From: Deltaproteobacteria bacterium
Lineage (GTDB): Bacteria; Desulfobacterota; DSM-4660; Desulfatiglandales; Desulfatiglandaceae
Reading direction: 5' to 3'
NCBI GenBank assembly: GCA_019308785.1
Contig: JAFDHL010000051.1
Location: 1-32,148 of the forward strand
DNA: 32,148 nucleotides
Shown here in pieces: positions 3,591 through 9,132 of the stretch (position 1 is the first letter of the stretch; every line of letters begins with the position of its first letter). Made by a program: the position numbers and the translations under genes. The notes beneath the pieces are model-generated. The model searched no databases. It saw only the letters and a list, made by a program, of their open reading frames with translations, and was not told where the DNA came from.

Positions 3591-5372
3591 CTACTGGAGA
3601 CTAAAATTGATTTTGCCGAGTACAATCCGGTTCTTTTTTACAAGGGCCTCATATTTGTTTTTATCGGCAGGACCTCTAAAGAACCGCCCTATGCTCTGTT
3701 TTTCGCGTGCCCTGAGTTCGTATCCGTCAATGCTCAGGTGAAATCCCTTTTCGCCGTGGAGATTCGTCTTGACATCATCCAGGCATATTTCGTCTCTTGC
3801 CGATATTGGGAGCGTATCACCCGGTCTTAGTACCATGTGTGATCGGTCGTTAACATTCAGGATCAAGTAGTCAAATGAGGCAGGGCTCAGGCTCACATAA
3901 AACCTGGCCAAGATATGTGTGCCCTGAGAAGCCACAATCTCGTATACCTTCCCTTTCTTGTCCAGGGAATATCGCCTCATGAGATTGGTTGCCGTATTGA
4001 TATCATACCCCCTGTCCTCGCCAGTATTGTTTTTCCAGTTGCCCACAAATCCCTTGAAGTTGATTTTTAGTCCTGAAGGGCAAAAGCATGAGGGGAGAAC
4101 GTCCACGACCTTCATGTGATCGCCCTTAACCAGAGGGAGCGTTTCTCCATCGGCCAGAAGAAATCGGTGTCCCCTTGCCTCAACCACGAGATATTCAAGC
4201 TTTAATGTTAGATTCCGTTCGTCGCCTTCTACCCTGCGATTCCCGGATATCTTGATGGGAATTTCAGCGAACGTCTGGTTATCCTTCCTCACGATCAGAC
4301 GAGTGTTTCTGGTAATCACAATATTTTTCCGGAAATCGTTCAGATCGCCGTATCCCAGAATGTCGAGGCTTAGTCCCCGTTCATAGTTGGCCTCAATATG
4401 GGATACATAAATGGAATCTCCTGCCCGGAGGTAAATACTTTGCCTATCTTTAGCCACCGTAGCGGTTTTTCCATTTATGGATAGAACCAGGTATTTTAAA
4501 ATAGGCGGGTCCAGGGCGATTCCCGGATGTTCCGGAATAATGTCGAAGTGTTTCATGAAGGTGTTTATGACCAGATTATGATACCGGACCTTAAGATCAA
4601 TCGATGGCAAGAATTTGGATGTCTCCACTCCAAAGGCGGGAATATGATGTTTTGTAAGGGCATAATAGGTGGCGGATTTCCTTTGTTGCTTGTGAGCACT
4701 ATCCGGATCTCCGGTTTCCGTATTGTTGAAGTGAAATTTGTACAGCTCATTTTTAACATAGAGGTTGACCTTGGCAATGACCTTTCGGGCCATATCTCCC
4801 AGATTTATCAATCGATCAGTTCCGGGGACGGTATAAACGTCACAGTCAGCGATAATGGACTGGCCAAAACGCATTGGATTACGCCATTTGTCAATGTATT
4901 TGGGATAATAGTAGCCTGAACCATCGTGCAGATTTAGAAGATAATCGCTTTGTCCGATCAATTTTTTGAGGATGGAGACAATTTTGTCTTCCATACTATC
5001 GGCTGTGTCTTCATGGGTAAACTTTCTGTTCATATCACCATGAGGGCCTCTTTTGTTCAAGAGTATGGAGTAGAAATTTGCCCTTGGCACGACGATAAGA
5101 TTACCCTTTTCAAGACTCATATCAGCGTAAAGATCCGCAGACAGGAATCCCCCCGGCTCATTACCCTGAATGCCTCCGATCAACATTAGGGTTTTTCCCG
5201 GTTGTTTGCCGTAGATTTTGTACACATTTAACTCATATACGGTATTGGGGAAATAGACTAAGTGCTCTCGTTGTGACAGTGCAGGAGGGGGGGAAAAAAA
5301 GAGGGGAATTTGAATCATGAGGTACAGGACAAGAGAAAGGAAACTCCGGGATGGCGCGGAATTATAAAGCAT
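3591..5372 (-). CDS. M99 family zinc carboxypeptidase, Csd4/Pgp1-like
   Basis: Probable periplasmic peptidoglycan carboxypeptidase. Characterised M99 relatives (Helicobacter Csd4, Campylobacter Pgp1) trim tripeptide stems and are needed for helical cell shape. A hydrophobic N-terminus (about 10-32, ending ALS) looks like a signal peptide. The zinc site has the M99 signature: Q69 and E72 in GGIQGNEPGG and H149 in LLNLHDGSG, with glutamine in place of the usual M14 histidine. MNRKF (114-118) supplies the substrate-binding Asn-Arg pair, and E250 in FGVETSK fits the catalytic glutamate. Residues 290-593 form a long beta-rich C-terminal region, as in Csd4, but this protein is longer (593 versus about 440). 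The ATG overlaps the preceding gene's end by 11 bases, so translation is likely coupled. The family call is strong; substrate and shape role are inferred. Confidence 0.85.
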   Translation of the reverse strand: MLYNSAPSRSFLSLVLYLMIQIPLFFSPPPALSQREHLVYFPNTVYELNVYKIYGKQPGKTLMLIGGIQGNEPGGFLSADLYADMSLEKGNLIVVPRANFYSILLNKRGPHGDMNRKFTHEDTADSMEDKIVSILKKLIGQSDYLLNLHDGSGYYYPKYIDKWRNPMRFGQSIIADCDVYTVPGTDRLINLGDMARKVIAKVNLYVKNELYKFHFNNTETGDPDSAHKQQRKSATYYALTKHHIPAFGVETSKFLPSIDLKVRYHNLVINTFMKHFDIIPEHPGIALDPPILKYLVLSINGKTATVAKDRQSIYLRAGDSIYVSHIEANYERGLSLDILGYGDLNDFRKNIVITRNTRLIVRKDNQTFAEIPIKISGNRRVEGDERNLTLKLEYLVVEARGHRFLLADGETLPLVKGDHMKVVDVLPSCFCPSGLKINFKGFVGNWKNNTGEDRGYDINTATNLMRRYSLDKKGKVYEIVASQGTHILARFYVSLSPASFDYLILNVNDRSHMVLRPGDTLPISARDEICLDDVKTNLHGEKGFHLSIDGYELRAREKQSIGRFFRGPADKNKYEALVKKNRIVLGKINFSLQ

Positions 5373-6186
5373 TCTCCACCTCGAATTCCTTTTGGAGGAT
5401 CACTTTTCCGGATTGATCGTACACAAGGACTTTCATTGAAGATGGAAATTCTTTGCTTGAGCTGAAGAAATATTCCCCTCGAATAGTCTTGAAGCGCTTG
5501 ATTAAAAAAAGCTGACCCCGTCTATAATCAATAGGGATTCCATTCCGCAGCGCAACTTTCGGGTATGTCCACAACTGCGGCGGGTCAGATTCCTTGTTCA
5601 TGGCAATCATGTGCACATATCCTTTCACCGGCTTTTCATCCTCATGCACGTTGACCAGGTTGAAGATAACGCTCAGTTTTGTCCCGTCGAATTTAATTGT
5701 AAGATCTTTGATGTTCACAAGTGTTTCTTGGGATTCTTCCGCAACCCTTTCAACCAAACCGTCCTCCGCTGCAAGTGCAGCCATTTTTTCACTTCCCATT
5801 TTTCCCTCGGCCGGGTCCCCTTCTTTTTCCAAATCAACTTCTTGAGGATAAATATGGCTTTCCAATAGCGCCAGGTGTTGTTTGGCGCTGTAGAGTTCTC
5901 TTTTCGCGCCTTCAATCTCATGTTGAAGGCCATCAAGTTTTTCTATCAAGGCATTATTTGCACGTCGTTTGTCAAAATAGTCATTAATAATTATAACAGA
6001 GGCAAGAATGTAGAATGCAAAAAACAAAGAAGTCCAGATCAGGAAACGGGAAGAGATCTTAAAACTCCGGACTTTCCCCAGCCTTGCGACTATCATGATG
6101 GTTAGATCGGACGATCGAGAGTGCTTTCGCTTTACGGCCCGGTCTTTTCTGACAGGGGGCACCACGTCTCTTTTCTGATTTTCCAA
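5362..6186 (-). CDS. Unknown membrane-anchored coiled-coil protein between csd6-like and csd4-like genes
   Basis: I do not recognise a family. The protein has a basic cytosolic N-terminus (1-45, rich in R and K), one transmembrane segment (about 48-68), a heptad-like coiled coil (about 70-112), an acidic linker (about 115-150) and a compact, probably beta-rich periplasmic domain (about 155-272). The architecture resembles bitopic envelope scaffolds such as MreC or FtsL-type proteins, without sequence evidence for either. The start is TTG at 6186, with AGAGG eight bases upstream. It overlaps the csd6-like gene by 55 bases and the M99 gene by 11. This points to one transcript and to a partner or anchor for the two flanking cell-wall enzymes (inference). 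Confidence 0.8.
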   Translation of the reverse strand: MENQKRDVVPPVRKDRAVKRKHSRSSDLTIMIVARLGKVRSFKISSRFLIWTSLFFAFYILASVIIINDYFDKRRANNALIEKLDGLQHEIEGAKRELYSAKQHLALLESHIYPQEVDLEKEGDPAEGKMGSEKMAALAAEDGLVERVAEESQETLVNIKDLTIKFDGTKLSVIFNLVNVHEDEKPVKGYVHMIAMNKESDPPQLWTYPKVALRNGIPIDYRRGQLFLIKRFKTIRGEYFFSSSKEFPSSMKVLVYDQSGKVILQKEFEVENAL

Positions 6187-7469
6187 TTGTTTGCCTCTTT
6201 TACAAGCAGCAGTTTTTTCATGCCCAAATCATGGTAGGCATCGGCCTTATAACTCTGTCTAAAATGAACCTCTGCGCTTTTACCTGACTGATTAACAACC
6301 TTCATTTGGCTGATCTCGATCTTTATTGCACGGTACTTTTTGTTCAGCGTGGCTTTGTATTTTTCCCAGGCCCTCAAATCCATGCCGCTGGCCCGGAATC
6401 TTTTATCATAAAAGGAGATATAAGTCCTGAGATCTTTGTGTTCCCATGCCTTTTCCCAGGCATCTACGAAATTTTTTACTTCCTGCAAAGGCACCTTCTT
6501 CTTTGCCTTGAACTCCGAAAAGAACTCCCCGACTATTCTCCACCTGTCACTGTTTTTTGCCAGGTAGAGCCTTTTTTCACCCCGGCTCTCAAAGCCGGCA
6601 GTACGATATGTCTGGTCAAATTTGGCAAGGACATTGCCGTTTGCCTTAAAAAGTTGGATGTTGTCAATGTCCACCTCAATCTTTCCATACTTTTTAGCAA
6701 GCCTGGTTTTATAAGCCTTCCAATGATCGCAATCCATTCCTCTCGCAGAAAATTGCTGGCTGTAAATGTTTATATATTGATCAATATCCTTTTTCTCCCA
6801 GGCACGAGCCCATGTTTCAATCAGTTTCTCCAGGTTCGTTGATTCTTCTCTCAGTCTTTTATAGGGAACCAGATCCATCTTGGCATTGATTATGACCGGG
6901 GTTTCGCGCAGCCTGATATAGGAGGCCAAGTCCTCAATGTCTCTATTTTCAAGTACAATACATCCGTTCGTATCCCTGGGTTTCAGGACCTCGTCGGTCC
7001 CGTGGAACCAGATACCATACCCGCGCCTTCCCTGCTTTTTGTCCAGCTGATTCGGGTAATCAAGAGGAAATGCCATGATCCCGTAAGTGGAGGCAAGGTC
7101 CCTCTTCACAAAAGATTTTGTGAAGAAGTAGACTCCTTCAGGTGTTTTTTTGTCATTTTTTCTTGATTTTGGCCCGCTGTTTTCTCCTGTAGAGCACCTG
7201 TACACCTTTACAGGCTTTGATAGATTATCCCTTTGAAACACGAAAACCTTTTGAGCAGATTTATCCACAAGTATTGCGTAATCACTTCCCGTTTCAGGCC
7301 ATTTTAATAAGTGGGCCGGAACGAGGTTTAAAGCGGCATCGGCCGACGGAATATAATAAGCGAAGACCAGAACGAAAAATATGATTATCTTGGTCGTCCC
7401 GATCCTAAGTAATGCCCTGCTTGTCTTGGCAGTTAAGAGTCCAGTCATATTCCTGTCTAAATAGTGCAT
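6132..7469 (-). CDS. YkuD L,D-transpeptidase/carboxypeptidase with two NTF2-like repeats, Csd6-like
   Basis: Exported cell-wall enzyme. A membrane or signal segment spans about 26-46. The YkuD catalytic domain (about 63-197) carries the conserved histidine in WFHGTDE (H156) and the nucleophile cysteine in NGCIVL (C170). Two tandem NTF2-like repeats follow (about 217-330 and 333-440). They are recognisable from the paired segments ARAWEKKDIDQYINIY and EKAWEHKDLRTYISFY. Helicobacter Csd6 and Campylobacter Pgp2 share the YkuD-plus-NTF2 plan and act as L,D-carboxypeptidases, but carry one NTF2 domain. A second ATG at codon 8 (7448) has AGGA close upstream and could be the true start. This is the first gene of the overlapping trio. 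Whether it acts as transpeptidase or carboxypeptidase cannot be told from sequence. Confidence 0.85.
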   Translation of the reverse strand: MHYLDRNMTGLLTAKTSRALLRIGTTKIIIFFVLVFAYYIPSADAALNLVPAHLLKWPETGSDYAILVDKSAQKVFVFQRDNLSKPVKVYRCSTGENSGPKSRKNDKKTPEGVYFFTKSFVKRDLASTYGIMAFPLDYPNQLDKKQGRRGYGIWFHGTDEVLKPRDTNGCIVLENRDIEDLASYIRLRETPVIINAKMDLVPYKRLREESTNLEKLIETWARAWEKKDIDQYINIYSQQFSARGMDCDHWKAYKTRLAKKYGKIEVDIDNIQLFKANGNVLAKFDQTYRTAGFESRGEKRLYLAKNSDRWRIVGEFFSEFKAKKKVPLQEVKNFVDAWEKAWEHKDLRTYISFYDKRFRASGMDLRAWEKYKATLNKKYRAIKIEISQMKVVNQSGKSAEVHFRQSYKADAYHDLGMKKLLLVKEANNWKIRKETWCPLSEKTGP

Positions 7470-7482
7470 TTCTAATTGAATT

Positions 7483-7849
7483 ATACTAATTGAATGGTAA
7501 TGTTCAAAACTGTTCCCGTGGGATATAAATTCATCCGATTCCCGTGCATGGATTACTAAGTCTGGTACCTAAAAATCCTTACCGATCTTGTAAAAATGAA
7601 GGGCATGGGACTCTTTTTTCAGAATCGACTCGGCCAGATCGCTGGACTTGGCAATCCTGCAAACCAAGGCGGGCGGCGGGCTGCCCAGGTTTATGCCATG
7701 TCCTGTGTCCTGGGCGTGAAGCACAGCAGTCTCCCCGCCCGCCTCAGGTAGCAGGGACATGTACAATCCAGCAACCAATTTTTCGATTCCTGAAAAAAGA
7801 GTCCCATGTCCTTCAAAATGCAAACACTTTTAAACGATACTAATTGAAT
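7483..7849. repeat. 13-bp perfect direct repeat bracketing the palindrome
   Basis: ATACTAATTGAAT occurs at 7483-7495 and again at 7837-7849, where it overlaps the purB stop codon. The copies bracket the palindrome, at 99 bases on one side and 16 on the other, so they are not adjacent to its arms as a classical target-site duplication would be. Confidence 0.6.
7595..7820. repeat. Long nested palindrome (about 226 bp), possible MITE or structured RNA
   Basis: Outer arms of about 32 bases (7597-7628 and 7783-7814, core CATGGGACTCTTTTTTCAG) differ by one base and one indel. Inside lie AGGCGGGCGG/CCGCCCGCCT (7667-7676 and 7735-7744) and GCCCAGG/CCTGGGC (7683-7689 and 7709-7715), all concentric. 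The 38-base stretches between outer and middle tiers are equal in length and also pair partly (GCTGGA in both, read outward-in). The whole unit can fold into one rod. It lies between purB and the csd6-like gene. Confidence 0.85.
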
Positions 7850-9132
7850 ACGCGCGCGAATATATCATCCACATGCTGGAGATGATAATCCACGTCAAAA
7901 ACATCCTCGATTTCCTTTTTACTCAAGTACTTGCCAATTTCTTGATCTTCCATGATAAGGACCTTGAATTCCTGTCCGCTCTCCCATACTTTCATAGCAT
8001 TTTTCTGGACCATAACATAGGCCTTCTGCCTTTCAACGCCCTTTTCCGCCAGTTTCATAAGGAACTGCTGGGAAAAAATAAGCCCCTTTGTCTTTTTAAG
8101 GTTCTCGGCCATCTTGTGGGGATGGACCACAAGGCCACTGACGATTCCGGTTAAACGATGCAGCATAAAATCCATAAGGATGGTGCTGTCCGGACCGATT
8201 ATCCTTTCTACGGAGGAATGACTGATGTCCCTCTCATGCCACAGGGCCATGTTTTCGAAGGCAGCCATGCAGTTGGAGCGCACCAGGCGCGCGAGCCCTG
8301 TAATATTTTCACACCCGATTGGATTTTTTTTGTGGGGCATGGCAGATGAACCTTTCTGTCCTTTGGCAAAAGGCTCCTCTGCCTCCAGGACCTCTGTCCT
8401 CTGGAGATGTCTTATTTCAACAGCAATCTTCTCCAGGGTTCCGGCTACAATCGCCAGGCTCGCGAAGTACTCCGCATGACGGTCACGCTGGAGGATCTGG
8501 GTGGAGATTTCCGCTGGATTTAGGCCAAGTTTTTTACATACAAGCGATTCAACCTTCGGGGAGACATTGGCGAATGTCCCCACGGCACCGGACAGCTTCC
8601 CATAGCTGATAACATCATAAGCCGCTTCCAAACGTCTCAGGTTTCGTTTCATTTCGGAATACCAGACAGCCAGCTTAAGCCCAAAGGTTATGGGTTCCGC
8701 ATGGATGCCATGTGACCGACCGATCATCACTGTGAATTTGTGCTCAAATGCCCTTTTCTTTATAACTTCTATAAATTCTCTGACGTCCTGGATGATGAAT
8801 TCCATGGCTTCTTTTAAAAGAAGTGCGAAACTGGTATCCAGGATATCGGATGATGTCAACCCTAAGTGAATATAACGTGAGTCAGGCCCAACATGTTCAG
8901 CTACGTTCGTTAAAAACGCGATAATGTCATGTTTTGTCTCTTCCTCTATCTCCAGGATACGATCAACAGAAAAGGCTGATTTTTTCCTGATGTTTTCAAA
9001 TGCTTTCTGCGGGATGAGACCTTCCTCTGCCATGGCCTCGCAGGCAGCAACTTCAACCTCGAGCCACTTGGCATATCGATTCTCTGACTCCCAGATGCGG
9101 CCCATCTCTGGACGGGTATAACGGCTGATCAT
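7840..9132 (-). CDS. purB: Adenylosuccinate lyase
   Basis: Cytosolic fumarase/aspartase-superfamily enzyme. It makes AMP from adenylosuccinate and AICAR from SAICAR in purine synthesis. Visible motifs are TSSDILDT (93-100), the catalytic histidine in GRSHGIHAEP (H141) and the flexible signature loop GSSAMPHKKNP (261-271) with the catalytic serine. Length (430 aa) is typical of the short bacterial form. The ATG at 9132 has a strong AAGGAG about seven bases upstream. It follows menA by 40 bases, probably as one transcript. The stop codon falls inside one copy of the 13-bp direct repeat. Confidence 0.97.
   Translation of the reverse strand: MISRYTRPEMGRIWESENRYAKWLEVEVAACEAMAEEGLIPQKAFENIRKKSAFSVDRILEIEEETKHDIIAFLTNVAEHVGPDSRYIHLGLTSSDILDTSFALLLKEAMEFIIQDVREFIEVIKKRAFEHKFTVMIGRSHGIHAEPITFGLKLAVWYSEMKRNLRRLEAAYDVISYGKLSGAVGTFANVSPKVESLVCKKLGLNPAEISTQILQRDRHAEYFASLAIVAGTLEKIAVEIRHLQRTEVLEAEEPFAKGQKGSSAMPHKKNPIGCENITGLARLVRSNCMAAFENMALWHERDISHSSVERIIGPDSTILMDFMLHRLTGIVSGLVVHPHKMAENLKKTKGLIFSQQFLMKLAEKGVERQKAYVMVQKNAMKVWESGQEFKVLIMEDQEIGKYLSKKEIEDVFDVDYHLQHVDDIFARVFN

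Follow-up and report, generated by a model that had tools for sequence, protein, structure and literature searches.

On a stretch of 32,148 nucleotides from a Deltaproteobacteria bacterium of the family Desulfatiglandaceae (GCA_019308785.1, contig JAFDHL010000051.1, positions 1 to 32,148; referred to as the window) three overlapping minus-strand genes, read from 7469 to 3591, encode a YkuD enzyme with two NTF2-like domains, a 274 aa membrane protein and an M99 carboxypeptidase. The product of the middle gene is called MID here, which is a working name. We consider it probable that this operon is a bactofilin-linked two-step peptidoglycan-trimming module, which would trim peptides locally and thereby control cell shape. 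Within the Desulfobacterota, one operon often combines both enzymes, a transmembrane adaptor carrying a homologue of a bactofilin-binding hairpin, and a bactofilin. As to the assignment of both enzymes together with the conservation of the operon, we are highly confident.

The product of the first gene (445 aa) was recognised by the YkuD profile with 82 bits against a cut-off of 23, and the Cds6_C NTF2 profile (E 5.5e-43) matched two separate stretches. An earlier note, made from the sequence of the window, had claimed a YkuD-NTF2 enzyme with the residues H156 and C170 and two NTF2-like repeats instead of the one of Csd6. Both claims were borne out; the His/Cys pair is unchanged in all 16 YkuD sequences aligned. 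The best matches in the PDB were 7o21, 4xzz and 6xj6, that is Bd1075 (7o21; PMC8938487), Csd6 and Pgp2. These proteins share with the window enzyme the YkuD domain followed by Cds6_C NTF2 and the His/Cys pair, whereas the window enzyme has a second NTF2 domain, which is swapped for the MID beta-sandwich in some relatives. Judging from its relatives the protein is predicted to be an LD-carboxypeptidase and not a transpeptidase. Two further genomes of the survey described below (G030 and G130) contain on several contigs three to six Cds6_C NTF2 matches and no M99, which suggests expanded YkuD-NTF2 or other NTF2 proteins.

The product of the third gene matched the M99 profile PF17033 with 138 bits (cut-off 27, E 4.6e-40), and a Foldseek search with its AlphaFold2 model (mean predicted local distance difference test score, pLDDT, 88.6) ranked Csd4 first (E 3.5e-29). 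Csd4 is likewise the nearest relative of known structure in the PDB. The numbering and the roles of the Csd4 residues used for the alignment were taken from PMC4220969. The Gln-Glu-His zinc site pointed out before (Q69, E72, H149), the general base E250 and the residues R108, N115 and R116 are invariant in 60 of 60 M99 sequences, and the active site is intact. The metal site, the general base and these Arg and Asn residues are shared with Csd4. By analogy with Csd4 of H. pylori and Pgp1 of C. jejuni the protein is predicted to be a DL-carboxypeptidase acting on tripeptides. It differs from these enzymes in that its gene stands beside that of the partner enzyme, and in its size: it has 593 aa and the Csd4 chains in the PDB have 437-439 aa, so that the longer C-terminal region noticed earlier is real. 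Csd4 possesses two accessory domains beyond the catalytic one in a three-domain architecture (CPase, beta-barrel, Ig-like; PMC4220969), whereas the model of the window protein contains three further beta-domains. The Peptidase_M99_C profile gave a weak match only.

At the position of Csd4 Met203, which contacts meso-diaminopimelic acid (meso-DAP) in Csd4, all 60 operonic M99 sequences have Gln, and each of the 11 Csd4-like paralogues of this phylum has Met; the operonic enzymes are consequently a distinct subgroup. The position of Csd4 Trp148 is occupied by Phe or Tyr in nearly all of them, and Q230 together with F/Y169 (window numbering) separates them from the Csd4-like group. Substrate recognition is possibly altered in this subgroup. 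We rejected N147, at the position of Csd4 His126, as a marker, since Asn also occurs in most Csd4-like paralogues of the phylum. Both subgroups occur in this phylum, and the genomes G209 and G294 contain both; the Csd4-like proteins (Met203, Trp148; L002-L012) are not linked to YkuD. At one locus (L039:5126-6660, genome G072) the M99 frame is broken into two open reading frames (ORFs) by a frameshift or an assembly error.

Among 297 genomes of the phylum Desulfobacterota, 57 contained M99 and 54 of these also a Cds6_C protein. The Cds6_C gene lies immediately upstream on the same strand in 39 of the 59 M99 matches, and among the unlinked matches is the group that resembles Csd4 most (205-305 bits). 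When 84,980 species genomes were scanned, 80 named loci were obtained, nearly all from Desulfobacterota metagenome-assembled genomes (MAGs) but including isolates such as Desulfocarbo indianensis and Dethiosulfatarculus sandiegensis as well as two Nitrospirae MAGs. After merging the locus sets and dropping duplicates, 90 unique M99 loci with full flanks remained, again nearly all from Desulfobacterota; as they were collected via M99, the following fractions hold for M99 loci. The YkuD gene is adjacent in 78, MID in 74, and all three genes stand together in 68. Because this gene order is kept across many families the trio is far beyond chance, and the regular separation in related genomes that the earlier note had named as a refutation was not seen. 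No description of this operon was found in the open-licence literature, subscription papers lying outside the search.

Within the trio the YkuD and MID genes overlap by 55 nt and the MID and M99 genes by 11 nt, in agreement with the earlier observation. The start codon of MID is a TTG with AGAGG 7 nt upstream; with an alternative in-frame GTG at residues 8-9 the first overlap would still be about 31-34 nt. The overlaps had been taken to imply stoichiometric production. We do not follow this conclusion because gene overlap speaks for coupled translation only and because the intergene spacing varies among the relatives. The word 'fused' in the earlier note is right for the operon and not for the proteins of the window locus.

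MID gave no match above noise in sequence searches against Pfam and the PDB. A hidden Markov model (HMM) built from 27 separate MID sequences located MID between both enzymes in most loci. Members of the family diverge strongly in sequence (15-53% identical to the window protein) but its layout is fixed. In the AlphaFold2 model (pLDDT 85) two strands (residues 27-33 and 39-45) precede a single helix (46-112), which is followed by a disordered linker and a confidently predicted beta-sandwich (157-269); across the family the segment corresponding to residues 105-157 is between 31 and 102 residues long. The membrane-anchored coiled-coil protein recognised before as unassigned is therefore a genuine protein family and a candidate for annotation. 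Foldseek returned only generic Ig/FN3-like beta-sandwiches with low TM-scores for this model, and no function was inferred from them. The mean net charge is +3.8 before and +0.6 after the transmembrane helix, and 59 of 63 aligned rows show the pattern of a cytoplasmic N-terminus; because of this difference the hairpin is placed in the cytoplasm. In several families MID occurs alone, without neighbouring YkuD or M99 genes, beside purB, a UbiA-family or an RNase II-family gene (L185:2655-3470; L184:288-1091; L174, L175, L183), as if MID were the part of the locus that is retained most.

The best evidence that MID works with the YkuD enzyme is a fusion: at several loci (L032/L142, L054, L044, L126, L131, L155) the MID beta-sandwich is joined to the C-terminus of YkuD-NTF2, where it replaces the second NTF2 domain. 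Four of them (L044, L126, L131, L155) carry a separate MID as well. Together with the regular linkage this agrees with one part of the earlier proposal that the middle protein docks the two hydrolases, namely that it serves the enzymes; the link to bactofilin had been missed. Alternatively, MID might be a periplasmic activator or inhibitor and the NTF2 domains alone might localise the YkuD enzyme. This would fit with Bd1075, which is directed to the convex face by its NTF2 domain (PMC8938487), and with those loci that keep YkuD and M99 without MID. We nevertheless regard it as quite improbable, as a purely periplasmic regulator would need neither hairpin nor helix and the MID domain stands in for the second NTF2 domain in the fusions.

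The link to bactofilin lies outside the window, in relatives, and was found by inspecting MID copies situated away from M99. Of the 90 M99 loci, 44 have a bactofilin gene next to them on the same strand, 35 times downstream of M99, frequently with an overlap of a few bases, and nine times upstream; representative bactofilin genes score above the Pfam cut-off. Given that a typical genome of 2-5 Mb has one or two bactofilins, we estimate the chance of such an adjacency at well under 1%. In one family all six MID loci examined (L177-L181, L189) have MID directly followed by bactofilin and neither enzyme gene. Clear MID genes were found in four of 148 Nitrospirota genomes, and these four loci and L160 all show the order M23-bactofilin-bactofilin-MID-M99. 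At L035 the operon reads YkuD-MID-M99-M23-bactofilin. In G231, a genome of the same family as that of the window, a bactofilin gene lies directly upstream of YkuD-M99, and MID is found by itself at the site that it has in the window, flanked by purB and the RNase gene. Bactofilin is present in 57 of 59 genomes with clear MID and in 134 of the 238 genomes without it (Fisher p 1.9e-10, uncorrected for phylogeny), and the two MID genomes that lack bactofilin (G115 and G042) are incomplete (67% and 78%).

This recurring linkage also bears on the possibility that the two enzymes serve general peptidoglycan turnover, stress adaptation or a DpaA-like release of covalently attached envelope proteins, the genes being grouped since the enzymes act sequentially. 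The YkuD domain does match DpaA (NF040599, E 8e-8), weakly and with 31.7 bits far under the cut-off of 365. Besides the bactofilin genes, the Csd4 type of the M99 protein, the NTF2 architecture and the best structural matches, which are all shape enzymes, argue against such a role, and we consider it decidedly unlikely.

Weak MID matches in other genomes mostly covered the N-terminal part. At 20 of 20 such loci, chosen by the size of their open frames, an M23 peptidase lies at the match (Pfam confirmed seven of seven submitted). When the MID hairpin and transmembrane profile, without the coiled coil, was compared with the N-termini of these M23 proteins, a set drawn from weak MID matches, hhalign gave 95.6% (E 4.4e-9, 49 columns), in contrast to 0.1% for signal-peptide controls. 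An HMM of the hairpin only (about 25 residues) had too little power and the 47-residue hairpin-plus-transmembrane profile was required. M23 proteins of this layout are represented by LmdC, a bitopic endopeptidase whose N-terminal cytoplasmic tail binds the bactofilin BacA with a dissociation constant of about 15 uM; a hairpin mutation abolishes recruitment in R. rubrum (PMC10945521). MID and LmdC have in common the succession of cytoplasmic beta-hairpin, transmembrane helix, coiled coil and periplasmic domain, and both families are found next to bactofilin. The MID N-terminus is homologous to that of LmdC-like M23 proteins from its own phylum; its connection with the LmdC proteins of H. neptunium and R. 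rubrum is one of architecture and family. Unlike LmdC, MID has no M23 peptidase domain (no Pfam match) but a beta-sandwich, beside separate carboxypeptidases. Although MID is no LmdC, it may dock in the same manner, and we hold docking to bactofilin by MID to be rather likely. By description only, MID can also be likened to H. pylori Csd5, a bitopic protein without enzymatic activity that recruits the bactofilin CcmA and has been suggested to connect bactofilin with wall modification (PMC9507126); Csd5 differs in its C-terminal SH3 domain and in its partner, which is MurF rather than carboxypeptidases.

Several findings weigh against the proposed bactofilin-linked module. The window locus has no local bactofilin, nor have its nearest named relatives (L091-L108). 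At L032/L142 (genome G016) the fusion protein alone was detected, and it lacks hairpin and transmembrane helix. MID is missing at eight loci with adjacent YkuD and M99 genes (L033, L038, L041, L047, L151, L156, L158, L167), and the Nitrospirota MID-M99 loci have no adjacent YkuD gene. Binding between Pgp1 and Pgp2 could not be demonstrated (PMC3961634), and for Csd6 of H. pylori no binding to CcmA, Csd5 or Csd7 was observed (PMC9507126). The limits given above for the co-occurrence test and for the M23 set have to be counted here as well. MID could instead be a mere membrane anchor or scaffold for the carboxypeptidases, with bactofilin nearby through clustering of shape genes and no binding between the two. 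The first two of these findings are in line with this, as is the fusion itself, which connects MID to the YkuD enzyme and not to bactofilin. It would, on the other hand, leave unexplained the family with MID beside bactofilin and neither enzyme gene, the position of the Nitrospirota MID inside M23-bactofilin operons, and the hairpin region that MID shares with M23 proteins; we think a mere anchor unlikely.

In the bactofilin-linked module the cytoplasmic beta-hairpin of MID would bind the bactofilin filament and its helix would span the inner membrane. The coiled coil and the flexible linker would carry the beta-sandwich into the periplasm, where it would hold the YkuD-NTF2 enzyme and perhaps also M99. 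The YkuD-NTF2 enzyme would take D-Ala off tetrapeptides, and M99 would then remove meso-DAP from the tripeptides to leave dipeptides, in the order of Pgp2 and Pgp1; in C. jejuni Pgp2 makes the substrate of Pgp1 (PMC3961634). Because MID would link the filament to the enzymes, trimming would be limited to the envelope zone marked by the filament, and less cross-linking there could result in curvature or another shape. In the organism of the window the bactofilin partner would be supplied from another locus; its genome has two bactofilin genes, on other contigs. No paper on the cell shape of the cultured carriers Desulfocarbo, Dethiosulfatarculus and Desulfosudis was found in the open literature.

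Both enzymes add members to families already described, and a module of bactofilin and hydrolase is already known from LmdC and BacA; a form of it with carboxypeptidases and a separate adaptor appears to be new. The operon may bear on the open question of what directs LD- and DL-carboxypeptidases to one region of the wall; according to the study of Bd1075, there is no known mechanism by which a protein is targeted to a single side wall (PMC8938487). If the proposal is true, bactofilin filaments directly position trimming enzymes of the Csd6 and Csd4 types, which gives a concrete and testable chain from filament to wall chemistry. The chances seem about even that MID is a new family of bactofilin-client adaptors and the LmdC-type hairpin a general docking element for varied periplasmic modules.

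Table 1. Coordinates of the three genes and their domains in the window.
Feature	Position	Strand	Basis
YkuD with two NTF2-like domains, predicted LD-carboxypeptidase of Csd6/Pgp2/Bd1075 type	6132..7469	-	profiles, PDB matches, invariant residues
YkuD catalytic domain, residues 63-194, H156 and C170	6888..7283	-	PF03734, E 7.8e-23; both residues invariant
First Cds6_C NTF2-like domain	6525..6833	-	E 1.5e-22
Second Cds6_C NTF2-like domain	6168..6479	-	E 1.4e-21
MID, putative bitopic membrane adaptor, family without Pfam model, TTG start	5362..6186	-	HMM, AlphaFold2
MID N-terminal beta-hairpin, residues 27-45, proposed bactofilin-binding element	6052..6108	-	AlphaFold2; hhalign 95.6%, E 4.4e-9
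MID transmembrane helix and coiled coil, residues 46-112	5851..6051	-	AlphaFold2, alignment
MID C-terminal periplasmic beta-sandwich, residues 157-269	5380..5718	-	AlphaFold2; fusions to YkuD-NTF2
M99 metallocarboxypeptidase of Csd4/Pgp1 type, predicted DL-carboxypeptidase	3591..5372	-	profile, PDB/fold matches, invariant residues
M99 catalytic domain, Q69, E72, H149, E250	4539..5201	-	profile and alignment
M99 accessory beta-domain 1, residues 292-382	4227..4499	-	AlphaFold2
M99 accessory beta-domain 2, residues 394-496	3885..4193	-	AlphaFold2; weak M99_C match
M99 accessory beta-domain 3, residues 500-592	3597..3875	-	AlphaFold2; missing in shorter relatives; two accessory domains in Csd4

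The trio is flanked by purB upstream and by a convergent RNase II-family gene downstream. Between purB and the YkuD gene lies a dispersed repeat of about 315 bp (7530-7850), which resembles a miniature inverted-repeat transposable element and has inverted arms of 26 nt (7597-7622 and 7790-7815). About 40 copies were scored in the genome of the window, with 83-100% identity over long stretches and several at contig ends. The ORFs within the repeat (7544-7843 on the plus strand, 7569-7823 on the minus strand) are probably not genes. A further copy adjoins one of the bactofilins of this genome (L194 5473-5727).

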